Part shown: positions 21,972 to 41,299 of the stretch, piece after piece
How positions within the stretch are numbered: the stretch's first letter is position 1
How the letters are laid out: each line of letters starts with the position of its first letter
DNA from: Alphaproteobacteria bacterium
GTDB lineage: Bacteria > Pseudomonadota > Alphaproteobacteria > CAAHEQ01 > UBA3637
Reading direction: 5' to 3'
Length of the DNA: 57,259 bases
NCBI GenBank assembly: GCA_017647405.1
Contig: JAGCKR010000061.1
Coordinates: 1-57,259 of the forward strand
Made by a program: the position numbers and the translations under genes
Notes under the pieces: generated by a model
What the model was told of the DNA's origin: nothing
Database searches by the model: none
Seen by the model: only the letters and a program-made list of their open reading frames with translations

Positions 21972-22427
21972 ATGGATAAGTTAGTCATTCGTGTCGCAGA
22001 ACAAAATTTAACCAAAATAAAAGAACTCATCAATCAAGGATATGATTTAAATAAACCTTATAACGAGCATGGTTGGACACCATTTACCTTGGCAGTTGCT
22101 CAAAAGTTTCAAGTGTCTTTTATAAATGAATTGATTAAACTGGGTGGTGATATCAATCAACCAATCAAAGATGGCAGGACACCACTTATGCTATCTTGTT
22201 TATCCAGAAAATACCCCAATGTTTTAAAACTACTTATTCAATATGGAGCAGATGTGAATGCTCAGGACAAGAATGGATATACTGCTTTGATGCAGATTTT
22301 AAGACTCAATAACCTCTCTGAGAAAAAAGCATTTATCAAAACTTTGATAGATAATGGAGCAGATTTAACAACCATAAAGAACATTTATGGTAAAACGGCT
22401 CTGGATATTATGTTTGAAAGGATTTAG
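21972..22427 (+). CDS. Ankyrin-repeat protein 4
   Basis: A 151-aa paralogue of the previous gene with four ankyrin units (IKELINQGYDLNKPYNEHGW, FINELIKLGGDINQPIKDGR, LIQYGADVNAQDKNGYTALM, TLIDNGADLTTIKNIYGKTA). AAGGAAC precedes the ATG. Tandem duplication explains the pair. It is convergent with the beta-helix/HTH gene, whose stop is only 14 bases away. Confidence 0.88.
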   Translation: MDKLVIRVAEQNLTKIKELINQGYDLNKPYNEHGWTPFTLAVAQKFQVSFINELIKLGGDINQPIKDGRTPLMLSCLSRKYPNVLKLLIQYGADVNAQDKNGYTALMQILRLNNLSEKKAFIKTLIDNGADLTTIKNIYGKTALDIMFERI

Positions 22428-32379: not shown

Positions 32380-33465
32380 TTATTTTTTTTCATTGACCCC
32401 TCTTAAAAATTTATGTCCGCCATGACGGCCTTTATTAATAATTAGCATTTTTGTATGAGGGTATAATTCATCCAATCCCCAACCGTGAGAATCTTCCGGA
32501 ATAGCATATTCAGGAAAGAGGATCAAAGGATACCCACCCTGTTCATAAATTTCCTTTAAAATATAAGAATTTAACATAGACTCATCATGCCAAGCTGGCA
32601 TTTGATTATTTTTCATATCAATGTCAGACCATTCACGACAAGTTTTAATAAGCTTTAAAAATCCTTCTGCAGTTCCCCCATTAAATCCACCCATAAAATA
32701 ATGAACACCTTGACCGTTTGGGATATATGCTTTAGATTTTGGATTTCGATCATAAGGGAAATGATTGTTTTTAGCCGACCAATATCCCGGATGAAGAGTT
32801 ACCATAACACCCTGCTCTTTTGTCGGAAAAATTTCTTCATGAATTTCTTTTGTGGGCAACATTGTGCCATTTAAGAAATAAACATAATCAAATTTTTTTA
32901 ACTCATTTTCAATTCCTTCAAAGAAATGAAATCTTTTAAAGGTTACATACGGCCACGGCAATTGATCTTGGTGAATTTTCACCACATTTTCAGGAACCTT
33001 TAAGTCATCATGATCCGTAAACAAAAAATATGTCTTTTTGTGACGTGGTAAAAAGTATTTTTCCGTTTGCTTATAAAAATTCTCCCAAAACACTATATAT
33101 TTTCCGGTTGCGATATAAAGAACGGCAACGGTTTTAGGGGTTGTATATTTCACTTTGGATTCTTGAACCAGTCTATATGTTGACAAATCCTTATCATATA
33201 AATATTGTTTATATCCATCAATAGAGGCAACGGAAACTGTTTTATCCGTTTTCCGAAGAACAGGCATTTTTAAATAAGTTTCAGCTACATTTAATTGAGG
33301 AACCCAAATATCCGTTTTTTTATCCCAAATATATGATTTAAGCTTTCCTTTTTCAAGGAGATAAATCGGTTCATAAGGCGAAACAAGCAACCATTGCAAA
33401 CAAATAATAACAGCTAAAAACGGCAAAAAAATAACCGCTGAATAAAAGAAAAAACCCTTTTTCAT
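32380..33465 (-). CDS. GT6-family glycosyltransferase, membrane-anchored
   Basis: A 361-aa retaining galactosyl- or N-acetylgalactosaminyltransferase of family GT6, the family of the vertebrate ABO enzymes. A membrane helix is at about 8-28, then a module of about 80 residues, then the catalytic domain from about 110. Landmarks: FTD (149-151), FLNGT (197-201) in the DxD position, HPGYW (225-229), AYIPNGQGVHYFMGGFNGG (split: GVHYFMGGFNGG, 253-264) and WHDES (292-296) with the catalytic Glu. The first Asp of DxD is Asn, as in metal-independent bacterial members. Most bacterial GT6 proteins lack a membrane anchor. It shares its whole layout with 39289-41211. Confidence 0.86.
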   Translation of the reverse strand: MKKGFFFYSAVIFLPFLAVIICLQWLLVSPYEPIYLLEKGKLKSYIWDKKTDIWVPQLNVAETYLKMPVLRKTDKTVSVASIDGYKQYLYDKDLSTYRLVQESKVKYTTPKTVAVLYIATGKYIVFWENFYKQTEKYFLPRHKKTYFLFTDHDDLKVPENVVKIHQDQLPWPYVTFKRFHFFEGIENELKKFDYVYFLNGTMLPTKEIHEEIFPTKEQGVMVTLHPGYWSAKNNHFPYDRNPKSKAYIPNGQGVHYFMGGFNGGTAEGFLKLIKTCREWSDIDMKNNQMPAWHDESMLNSYILKEIYEQGGYPLILFPEYAIPEDSHGWGLDELYPHTKMLIINKGRHGGHKFLRGVNEKK

Positions 33466-34055: not shown

Positions 34056-35819
34056 CTATTCTTGATAAAGAGCAGGTAAAATAATTTTTTCTTGCGGTGT
34101 TACTTTTTGAAAGAATGAATACCACTCTTCAATTGAAATAAAATGATGCATCCGTTCAAAATAAGCCTGTTCACTGCCCCAAAGAAGCCCTTGACTTATC
34201 AGTGGAAGCTTATTTTTTCTTAAAAAGTTTTTAACCCGTTCATCATTTATATTGAGTGACAAAATCCGAACATCATTATTTTTATAATCCGTCATATGAT
34301 TTAAATAATAAGAAAAACTCCATTTATTTAGTAAACAAGATAAGCATACATCATCTTCTACCGATACATATACGACTTGATTATTCTTTTTTAACGTTTC
34401 AATATCATCCGGCAATGATTTTGAATATGAATTATTTCCAAAAAAAGCAATTAATAACCATCCTAAAAGAATCATTTGAGGCAAACGAATAAGAACTGTA
34501 TACTGTTTTAATTTTCTAAGCTCAGAAAATAATATCGGTAATCGTTTACAAAGCATAAACGGTAACATTCCCAAAATAAATAAAATGAAGAAAAGGCCAA
34601 ACAACCATATGCCACCTTCTTCTGAAAACATTAAAATAAGATTAGTCAGATAGGGTTTCGGAAACAAAAGAAAAACAATGATCCCCATTTGTAACGTATA
34701 TTTCGGATAATAAACAAGCCAAAGAAGAATCCCCAGCATTATCCAAACAAAAACACCCCTAAGTTCCATTAAGTTGATTAAATTTGGATAAAGATAAAAA
34801 GAAAATGCCACAAACAGGAATAAAATCCCAAAAAGAATTTGTATTTTTTTCACTTTTTCTAAAAGAGCATTTTTTTCATCCGGCAGTGATAAAAACAAAT
34901 AAAACAAGGGAGAAAGAAAAAATAACAATATCCCTGCGCCAAAAACATCCAGCCAATTTATATTTTCACCTAAAAAAACATATGGATTTTGAGCGGGCGA
35001 AACTTCAATTTCAAATATTCCCAATGAAGAAATTAATGTTAAAGGAATTGCATCAGATGTCAGATTGATATCCGTTTTAATCAATAATGAAGCTTGGTTA
35101 TCTTTAAAATCCTTCTTAACAATTTCAAAATTTCCCAACTTTTGTGTTTGAAGATTCAAAAAAGAAACATCTTTTTTAAATGTTACAAATAACTGTAAAT
35201 AATTATTTTCTAAAATATTTAATTGAGCACCAACTTCTTCTTTCTTTGGTTTTTTAATCATTAACTGAAATTGGCGAAGCATTTTAGTGCAAACATCTGT
35301 CGGATAAAGTGAATCATTTCGAATCGAAAGAGATAAATCCAAAAATTCTTCTTTACACAAATCCTTTAAACACGCTTTAACAGGGAATTTTTTATTCACA
35401 GCAAGTTCTTGCGTTCCCTCTTTCAAATGATATATCAACGAAAAATAAGCCTTATTTTCATATCCGGAAAACCATTTTTCATCTAGACTTGAAACAGGAT
35501 ATAAAATTTTCTCTTCAAGAACATTATCCAGTTGGGAATAAGGTATTAATGGTTTTTCTAACTTCCAATCTTTTTGAAGTAACGCTTCAACCATTAAAAA
35601 TAAAATATTGTCTTTTGGAATTCCACCACTGCATGAAATTAATCGAAAACGACCAAATTCAGTTTTTTGATAGTCCCCTAAACCTTTTCGACCGGTAAAA
35701 ATTCCACGTTCAGCAAAAATATTTTCATCAACAAAAATATCCGTTTGCGCCTGAACAGTGGGGGCAAAAGAAAAGAAAATCTGAAATAAAAAGAAAAAAA
35801 AGATTAAAAAATACCTCAT
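34056..35819 (-). CDS. DsbD-like membrane protein with thioredoxin-like end
   Basis: A 587-aa envelope protein. A signal peptide covers about 1-25 and a beta-rich periplasmic region about 25-280. About eight membrane helices lie at about 290-465. The C-terminal thioredoxin-like domain has a CxxC (DDVCLSCLLNKW). This is the layout of the DsbD/ScsB electron-transfer family, which moves reducing power across the inner membrane. It departs from the family in that the Cys pair usual in the membrane domain is not visible. The start at 35819 is the first ATG; the longer frame opens with a TTG and has no site. Confidence 0.72.
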   Translation of the reverse strand: MRYFLIFFFFLFQIFFSFAPTVQAQTDIFVDENIFAERGIFTGRKGLGDYQKTEFGRFRLISCSGGIPKDNILFLMVEALLQKDWKLEKPLIPYSQLDNVLEEKILYPVSSLDEKWFSGYENKAYFSLIYHLKEGTQELAVNKKFPVKACLKDLCKEEFLDLSLSIRNDSLYPTDVCTKMLRQFQLMIKKPKKEEVGAQLNILENNYLQLFVTFKKDVSFLNLQTQKLGNFEIVKKDFKDNQASLLIKTDINLTSDAIPLTLISSLGIFEIEVSPAQNPYVFLGENINWLDVFGAGILLFFLSPLFYLFLSLPDEKNALLEKVKKIQILFGILFLFVAFSFYLYPNLINLMELRGVFVWIMLGILLWLVYYPKYTLQMGIIVFLLFPKPYLTNLILMFSEEGGIWLFGLFFILFILGMLPFMLCKRLPILFSELRKLKQYTVLIRLPQMILLGWLLIAFFGNNSYSKSLPDDIETLKKNNQVVYVSVEDDVCLSCLLNKWSFSYYLNHMTDYKNNDVRILSLNINDERVKNFLRKNKLPLISQGLLWGSEQAYFERMHHFISIEEWYSFFQKVTPQEKIILPALYQE

Positions 35820-35909
35820 AAAAAGCACTATAACAAAAAAAAACTTGATTGTCTTTAAAAAAATGTGTAAATTATAAAGGATTTTTACTAACAATTAATG
35901 GAGGCTCGT

Positions 35910-39288: not shown

Positions 39289-41211
39289 TCATTTTAAACT
39301 TTTTTCTTTTATCTTTGTTTTTAAAATCATCTTTTTAAAAGGCTCAAATTCATTAGCATAATTACATTCGACATTCGGATAAATATATTCCGGCGTTAAA
39401 ATTAAAGGATTATTTTCTGATTTTAATTTTTCAATCAAATATTTATTTACATAACTTTCATCTTTCCAGATGGGGATTATCCTTTGTTTTAAATCCTCAT
39501 CAATCCATTCTTTTATTGTTTTTGTCAAATTTAAAAATGCTTCTTTTGTTCCACCTAAAAAAACATTTTGCACATAAAAACTTCCGCTTCCCAATGGGGT
39601 ATATGCTTTTGAAAACTGATTTTGTTCAAAAGGCAACATATTTATATCCCATCGATAATGCCATGGATGCATCGCATAAACCATTTCTTGTTGAGGTGTC
39701 GGCAAAACCTCTTCTCCAACAGGCTCAATAGCCGTTAAATTTATATCCAAAAAATAAACGTAATCAAAATCATCCAATTCTTGTTTTATCTCATCAATTA
39801 AATGAAATTTTCTTAAGGACGTATATTGTTTTTTCAAATTAATTTTTTTAACAAACTTATTGTCTACTTTTAACTGTTTTTTATCCGTAAAGAGAAAATA
39901 TCTTTTTTCGTGATCGGCCAGAAAATTTTTCTCAACAGAGTTATAAAAACTATTCCATTCAGAAGCCTCTGCTCCAACGCCAAACGTTATAATGGCGATT
40001 TTCTTTTTTGTTTGAGCCATCATTTTAGAAACAGTCAACGGCTCATATTCGTTTGATAAGTATGGGATTCGATGATAAAGAGTTGATCTTTTTTTTGAAG
40101 GAATTAACAAAGTATTTCTCGTTCGACGAGCAACCTTAATATTTTCTGTTTTCCCAATCAACGTGTTTGTTTTTTCATCATAATCAAAACTTTTTTGCTC
40201 TCCGTCAATATGCAGTATTATCTTATTTTCTTCGATTTTTTTAGGCGTTGAAACAAAACAAGTATAAGTCGGATACACCTGTTCAAACATTAAAATCAAG
40301 GGCTCAACAAATTCATGCATTTTAAAACTAAGATATTTATTTAAGTAACTTTCGCTTTCCCGTTCAGGCGAAATATTTACTCTTAAATCCACATTCACCC
40401 ATTCTGTAATAACATTCATCAGATCAAAAAATGCTGTCTTTGTTCCCCCAACAAAATATTTACTAATATAAAATTTTCTGTCTTTTGGTACAATATAGCT
40501 ACTTGATCTGGCATTATTTTCATATGGAAATTTTCCTTCTTCCCAAGTATAATAACAAGGATGCAAAAGCGTTACAATGCCTTGTTTATCATCCGGAAAA
40601 ATTTCTTCACCAATAACATCGCTCGGCACAAGAGAAGTATCTATAAAATAGATATAATCATATGATTTTAAAAAATTTTTAACTTTTTCAAAAACATGAA
40701 ATTTTTTAAGATTATACGATTCTTCTTTTCTATCATAATGAGCAAAATTTAACACATTGTCTTTTTTATCTAACTGGTGATTATCGGTAAAAACAAAATA
40801 TGTCTTTTCATGATTCGTTAAAAAATTTTTTTCTGATGCTTTATAAAAATTTTCCCACTTTTTAGTATCTGCACCCATTGAAAAAGTTAAAATGGCAACT
40901 TTTTTCTTGTCTCCATGCAACATATTTGATTTTGTTAACACTTCATACTCATCATCAACAAAATGTATTCTATGATAAACAAATAAAGACTCATCATTTT
41001 TTATTGAAAAAGAATGGTCCGTCTTTTTTAACACATTATATTTAATATCTTCTCCTTTTAATACTTTTGTTTTGGGATTATAGTGAAACAACTCTGGCCA
41101 ACCACGCATATCAACATAAAATTCTTTTGTTTCAACAACAGGGAAAAACACATAAAACATTCCCCCAACAAAAACAAAAATAAAAAGAATAAGAAATAAT
41201 AATTTTTTCAT
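39289..41211 (-). CDS. Tandem double-GT6 glycosyltransferase
   Basis: A 640-aa protein with two copies of a 300-residue unit. After an N-terminal membrane helix (about 4-23), each unit has an 80-residue module and a GT6 domain: KKKVAILTF at 102 and KKKIAIITF at 402, FTD at 141 and 441, the DxD position at IDTSL (190-194) and LDINL (488-492), and the ESESYLNKY / KDESYVNKY catalytic region at 285 and 583. The first copy has lost the usual WHD before the catalytic Glu. No known GT6 enzyme I recall is double. It is probably involved in surface sugar assembly, next to kdsB. Confidence 0.78.
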   Translation of the reverse strand: MKKLLFLILFIFVFVGGMFYVFFPVVETKEFYVDMRGWPELFHYNPKTKVLKGEDIKYNVLKKTDHSFSIKNDESLFVYHRIHFVDDEYEVLTKSNMLHGDKKKVAILTFSMGADTKKWENFYKASEKNFLTNHEKTYFVFTDNHQLDKKDNVLNFAHYDRKEESYNLKKFHVFEKVKNFLKSYDYIYFIDTSLVPSDVIGEEIFPDDKQGIVTLLHPCYYTWEEGKFPYENNARSSSYIVPKDRKFYISKYFVGGTKTAFFDLMNVITEWVNVDLRVNISPERESESYLNKYLSFKMHEFVEPLILMFEQVYPTYTCFVSTPKKIEENKIILHIDGEQKSFDYDEKTNTLIGKTENIKVARRTRNTLLIPSKKRSTLYHRIPYLSNEYEPLTVSKMMAQTKKKIAIITFGVGAEASEWNSFYNSVEKNFLADHEKRYFLFTDKKQLKVDNKFVKKINLKKQYTSLRKFHLIDEIKQELDDFDYVYFLDINLTAIEPVGEEVLPTPQQEMVYAMHPWHYRWDINMLPFEQNQFSKAYTPLGSGSFYVQNVFLGGTKEAFLNLTKTIKEWIDEDLKQRIIPIWKDESYVNKYLIEKLKSENNPLILTPEYIYPNVECNYANEFEPFKKMILKTKIKEKSLK

Positions 41212-41271: not shown

Positions 41272-41299
41272 AAAAAAAAGAGAGGTTTCCCTCCCTTTT
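41272..41299 (-). terminator. kdsB-operon terminator
   Basis: On the minus strand GGGAGG pairs with CCTCTC around a GAAA loop, followed by a long T run. Confidence 0.72.

Follow-up and report, generated by a model that had tools for sequence, protein, structure and literature searches.

The gene under study lies at positions 39289 to 41211, on the minus strand of the window (the whole stretch of 57,259 nucleotides that was analysed). It comes from a gut alphaproteobacterium and encodes a protein of 640 amino acids. The protein begins with MKKLLFLILFIFVFVGGMFYV, a signal or anchor segment whose N-flank is positive and whose C-flank is not. The hydrophobic part covers residues 2-22 (41146..41208; this and the other features of the gene are all on the minus strand), with a mean hydropathy of 2.75. 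It is followed by beta module A (residues 29-96; 40924..41127) and GT6 domain A (residues 104-316; 40264..40902), then by beta module B (residues 330-396; 40024..40224) and GT6 domain B (residues 404-632; 39316..40002). A terminator-like hairpin, recognized as a consensus match only, is located between kdsB and the tandem gene (41274..41299, minus strand). Its position suggests a separate transcription of the tandem gene.

The earlier note on this DNA had described two GT6 units fused in one 640-residue protein, with the strand left unstated. The fusion itself is borne out. Pfam Glyco_transf_6 (PF03414) matches the protein twice, with 7.1e-41 for the whole protein (140.4 bits against a cut-off of 25). 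In the genome search, the separate domains reach 1.7e-26 and 9.6e-17, each above the cut-off. Compared with one another, the halves share 39% identity over 293 amino acids (E=4e-72), a similarity well above what chance would give. The repeat had been given as exact at 300 residues. This is right for KKKVAILTF/KKKIAIITF (102/402) and YFVFTD/YFLFTD (138/438), and the offset stays at 300 from the module into the early part of the GT6 domain. At YLNKY/YVNKY (289/587) the offset is 298, because copy B lacks two residues. The gene near 33 kb, correctly read before as a third module and GT6 unit in the window, encodes 361 amino acids (32380..33465, minus strand). Each half of the tandem is 35-36% identical to it. 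In the genome as a whole, three genes carry a total of four GT6 domains, the fourth domain being at C60:149318.

The AlphaFold2 model of the protein (pLDDT 84.5, pTM 0.57) presents a helix at residues 2-22, then a beta module and a GT-A fold, twice. The low pTM means that the mutual arrangement of the halves is not fixed by the model. A structural search with half B matched BoGT6a (4ayj) with Z 31.3 and an rmsd of 1.4 Å over 222 residues, at 33-34% identity (Foldseek E 7.6e-22). Half A shows in the model the same GT-A order of elements. So, the tandem protein is a GT6 by descent and fold.

The beta modules are supported by the model (seven strands in module A) and by their alignment with other modules; that of the 33-kb unit, modelled alone, folded with confidence (pLDDT 88.5). 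No Pfam family matched them above the cut-off, and the best structural match (Z 5.3), to single propeller-blade-like pieces, is not convincing. Just ahead of GT6 in Akkermansia proteins of 790 amino acids (L048, L051, L052, and L054), and in the GT6 proteins of L001 and L017 from the family of the window, there is a short module marked by the motif LKWDxWGxExF. It also ends a GT2 protein in L037. The modules of the window may be a diverged form of it.

A sister species, the sheep-rectum alphaproteobacterium MAG RGIG6438 (G004; JAFXIF010000005.1), carries an ortholog, 51% identical from end to end (over 641 amino acids) and encoded by one intact ORF. There too, the tandem gene adjoins ffh, and the stretch from this point to the single-unit gene is conserved. 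The single-unit paralog lies 6 to 7 kb from the tandem in both species. A frame error, or the same protein annotated elsewhere as two genes, had been named as grounds for doubting the fusion; the other species shows one frame. Neighbouring GT6 copies do occur in the genus, and an assembly or frame artefact, or two genes wrongly joined, could be suspected for this reason. The case is G002, where ffh is immediately followed downstream by two neighbouring but separate GT6 genes (L035:7496-10219, minus strand). However, they are ordinary-clade single units and not halves of the tandem protein. The tandem in the sister genome has its ffh neighbour conserved, the frames hold no stops, and the model is confident across both halves. 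The chance of such an artefact is negligible. In the genus, GT6 genes seem to have settled near ffh repeatedly. Two adjacent separate GT6 genes are likewise found on a viral contig (L170:2983-4421, plus strand).

Among the 43 genomes of the family (which is the whole order as sampled), 17 have GT6 above the cut-off, and the fusion is present in two, the window species and G004. G002 and other members of the genus have single GT6 units and no tandem. In G002, G007, and G009, kdsB is directly beside ffh without the tandem between them, which makes a derived insertion of the tandem probable at this place. Across the wider class sample, a GT6 match came from the genome of the window alone. Apart from the G004 record, none of 79 named loci (best 80 of 201 matches) had two GT6 domains in one frame, nor did any of 80 viral loci (best 80 of 301 viral matches); given these numbers, rarer tandem cases could be missed. 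No place in the phage and plasmid records covered 80% of the tandem query. The literature searched, where subscription journals were thinly covered, reports no tandem GT6.

In the tree of GT6 units, copy A groups with copy A (100/94) and copy B with copy B (100/98). It means that duplication and fusion are older than the split of the two species. A phage-derived origin was judged unlikely, with the best phage matches at about 26-31% identity to the tandem compared with about 34-42% for the singles of the genus. Among the viral GT6 proteins of our set, DXD-type motifs are frequent, and fusions to about 310 amino acids of other sequence occur. The trees also suggest an origin shared by the tandem and a degenerate GT6 domain of G019. 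In view of the very long branch of this domain (2.28 to 3.38), we do not claim the relationship.

We estimated the divergence of the tandem gene between the window species (G000) and G004. The values were dN 0.39 and dS 0.96, with dN/dS of about 0.41. The comparison genes are slower, with dN of 0.07 for ffh and 0.056 for the 33-kb unit. Between the two species, the tandem is 51% identical, ffh 90%, and the 33-kb unit 91%. By copy, the identity is 58% for B and 50% for A. A 612-aa ORF of the window without a Pfam match (34056-35894, minus strand) diverges at nearly the rate of the tandem (57% identity, dN 0.34), among conserved neighbours. The tandem gene diverges rapidly, yet it is under purifying selection and its frame is intact in both species. 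This fast divergence, together with the loss of conserved residues described below, is what could be expected of a gene in decay without a current function. Nevertheless, frames of about 640 codons have stayed open at a dS of about 1, dN/dS is below 1, and the residues of the core and of the sugar side are selectively retained. We consider decay very unlikely.

To describe the donor pocket, we aligned the four tandem units (two species, two copies each) with BoGT6a and 85 other GT6 domains. The residues of BoGT6a that contact UDP-GalNAc, as well as its acceptor contacts, were taken from PMC3961637. The earlier note had pointed out that the DxD positions differ, with DTS, DIN, and NGT. These triplets are correct for copy A (site YFIDTS; 40633..40650), copy B (site YFLDIN; 39739..39756), and the 33-kb unit, respectively. 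The yardstick was wrong, since bacterial GT6 normally have NXN and not DXD (PMC3961637). The first Asn of this motif is present in 85/85 other GT6 domains and is replaced by Asp in all four tandem units. The sites in G004 read D-M-E (A) and D-A-N (B). The tandem units therefore lack the NXN motif of the metal-independent bacterial subgroup. They lack the DXD motif of the metal-dependent GT6 as well, the closest being D-M-E of G004 copy A.

Further changes are shared by the four units. T10, Y13, W66, and H190 are lost in every one of them, likewise F16, P67, G156, and N159, the 66-70 region bordering an indel in the wider GT6 alignment. R73K and N95D are also present in all four. Copies A and B both lack the C-terminal diphosphate cap (GG..LR). 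Of the 11 conserved donor contacts, the window protein retains one in copy A and four in copy B, and G004 three in each; the median in other GT6 domains is 11. So, most of the UDP-GalNAc contacts of a catalytically competent GT6 are not found in the tandem copies. The columns lost in all four units are 6/11 for the donor and 5/29 for other conserved positions (Fisher p=0.04). Those retained in at least three units are 2/11 and 20/29 (p=0.006). The structural core is largely retained. Likewise, the equivalents of D180, H122, S193, N196, Y198, and the catalytic Glu192 are present in 4/4 units.

In copy B, the catalytic motif is KDESYVNKY (39439..39465), with E585 as the equivalent of BoGT6a E192. 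Its W-K-D-E and the equivalents of His122, Lys73, and Asp95 are conserved between the species. In copy A, W189-H190-D191 have become R-E-S. The weakened acid region that had been noticed in the first copy is thus real (RESE compared with W(H/K)DE), and the catalytic Glu itself is retained. The Asn-to-Asp change and the loss of most nucleotide-side contacts, common to both halves, had been overlooked. These shared losses make neither half resemble an ordinary GT6 enzyme.

The orthologs allow the constraint on each side of the pocket to be compared, from one ortholog pair per copy and with a sorting of nucleotide- and sugar-side residues that is partly a matter of judgement. In copy B, the nucleotide side is conserved at 0/6 positions and the sugar/catalytic side at 9/10. 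It means that the nucleotide side drifts while the sugar side is held. Copy A conserves 1/6 and 5/10. In the 33-kb paralog, the conservation with its G004 ortholog is complete (6/6 and 10/10). The suggestion that the halves may have different jobs fits this difference between 9/10 in B and 5/10 in A.

These results can be read in another way. The protein could have remained a glycosyltransferase in which one or both active sites now take a different donor, be it another nucleotide sugar or, outside the cytoplasm, a sugar linked to a lipid, with copy B catalytic and copy A helping to position the acceptor. The catalytic residues kept in all units, W-x-D-E in copy B with its H122, and the low dN/dS are as in an enzyme, and they count against a loss of transfer. 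Moreover, N95D and R73K are conservative and invariant in the tandem class, and they could mark a new donor and not a lost pocket. On the other hand, nucleotide-side contacts that differ between the copy B orthologs are ill-suited to a fixed nucleotide donor, and the diphosphate cap is absent in both copies. A transferase with a changed donor is fairly unlikely.

A hydrophobic N-terminal segment before GT6 is present in 23 of 27 distinct frames of the family of the window, and it is nearly absent from other bacterial GT6 proteins. According to the positive-inside rule, the GT6 domains of the tandem would face outward. Single-copy paralogs with complete UDP-sugar sites carry a similar segment, so export alone does not imply the absence of a nucleotide sugar. 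If these enzymes did face outward, their intact donor sites would be a contradiction.

Our preferred reading, to which we give a probability of about one half, is that the tandem is an anchored, probably extracytoplasmic pseudo-transferase derived from GT6. It would bind or process glycans without UDP-sugar. A module and GT6 unit of the genus would have changed its donor pocket and then undergone a head-to-tail duplication and fusion, before the window species and its sister separated. The first copy would have lost its C-terminal cap, and the second would have been left without an N-terminal anchor. The product would be held by a membrane anchor and would combine a pair of small beta modules with two copies of the GT-A (GT6) fold. 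Canonical GT6 use of UDP-Gal or UDP-GalNAc is unlikely for either half. With its sugar/acceptor-side and catalytic residues kept, copy B would most likely be a lectin-like or nucleotide-independent glycan-processing domain, and copy A a more degenerate partner or scaffold. What is shown here is the fusion and its conservation, the lost residues, the pattern of constraint, and the purifying selection; export, the binding of glycans, and the loss of transfer from UDP-sugar are inferred. A lectin-like role is our first choice over a nucleotide-independent transglycosidase or hydrolase. A narrower version has the anchored protein bind or re-process host-like glycans, with copy B being either a lectin or a retaining transglycosidase in which the catalytic Glu of GT6 is still in use. 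This version is tentative, at less than even odds.

A non-catalytic role of a different kind would be to regulate, stabilise, or anchor an active GT6 in a complex, such as the 33-kb single unit. Partners of the pseudo-transferase kind are known, as in Cosmc with C1GalT1. The single-unit paralog, close to the tandem in both species, has intact donor contacts and is highly conserved. However, G002 and other members of the genus have single units without any tandem. A regulatory partner is an unlikely explanation, and the glycan-binding or glycan-processing pseudo-transferase remains our preferred one.

Other fusions of GT6 were noticed, among them those of L028 and L126 in the same bacterial family. 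GT11 (alpha-1,2-fucosyltransferase type) is joined to GT6 in L028:580-2262 (plus strand; same contig as L057), L033, L092, and L036:6939-8713 (minus strand). Such a chain unites the conversion of Gal to H antigen with that of H antigen to A/B antigen. Both a roe-deer-caecum MAG (561 aa) and a Gastranaerophilales MAG carry the fusion intact, and an apparent frameshift splits the copy of G003, from the genus of the window. In G019, a protein of 874 amino acids (L126:3580-6204, minus strand) has GT10, GT11, and a degenerate GT6, with Y13 changed to D, the HDE motif lost, and Asp at the NXN position. It is possibly a Lewis-type synthase with a pseudo-GT6 tail. Ankyrin-repeat proteins are encoded in the window (21972-22427, plus strand) and upstream of the third GT6 gene (L037:249-2842, plus strand), a hint that the bacteria live in close contact with eukaryotic hosts.

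The A, B, alpha-Gal, and Forssman-type antigens are products of GT6 enzymes, which have been studied in detail in vertebrates and Bacteroides. Other families offer examples of chains with two transferase domains, or of pseudo-transferases. If our reading is true, a fused pair in which the sugar side of the pocket persists without the nucleotide side is a natural experiment that separates sugar recognition from catalysis in the GT6 fold. It would also suggest a route from host-mimicking enzymes to glycan-recognition proteins in gut bacteria. The GT11-GT6 and GT10-GT11-GT6 fusions make this little-known alphaproteobacterial family a site to study blood-group and Lewis-type mimicry.

Among known systems, BoGT6a from Bacteroides ovatus (PDB 4AYJ, 4CJ8, and 4CJC; PMC3961637) shares with the tandem units the family, the fold, the position of the catalytic Glu192, and H122, D180, N196, and Y198. 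It is a single domain with NXN and without an anchor, whereas the tandem units have Asp at N95 and lack T10, Y13, W66, H190, and the C-terminal cap. The single-copy proteins of the genus, such as that at 32380-33465, have the same layout of anchor, beta module, and GT6, and they are among the closest sequence relatives of the tandem. They differ in being one unit, in keeping the donor contacts, and in diverging far more slowly. The vertebrate GT6 (ABO GTA/GTB and alpha3GT) resemble the tandem in the GT-A fold and the type II layout, with an N-terminal anchor. Nevertheless, they are single units with a metal-dependent DXD, and half B is only about 21% identical to GTA/GTB. The fusions of L028 and L126 also join GT6 to another transferase domain, but the partners are fucosyltransferases and not a second GT6. 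The GT6 domain of L126 is degenerate too, with the same Asp at the N95 position. Finally, KfoC and PmHS have two GT-A domains in one chain, but they belong to the GT2 family, and both of their domains are active with complete donor sites.
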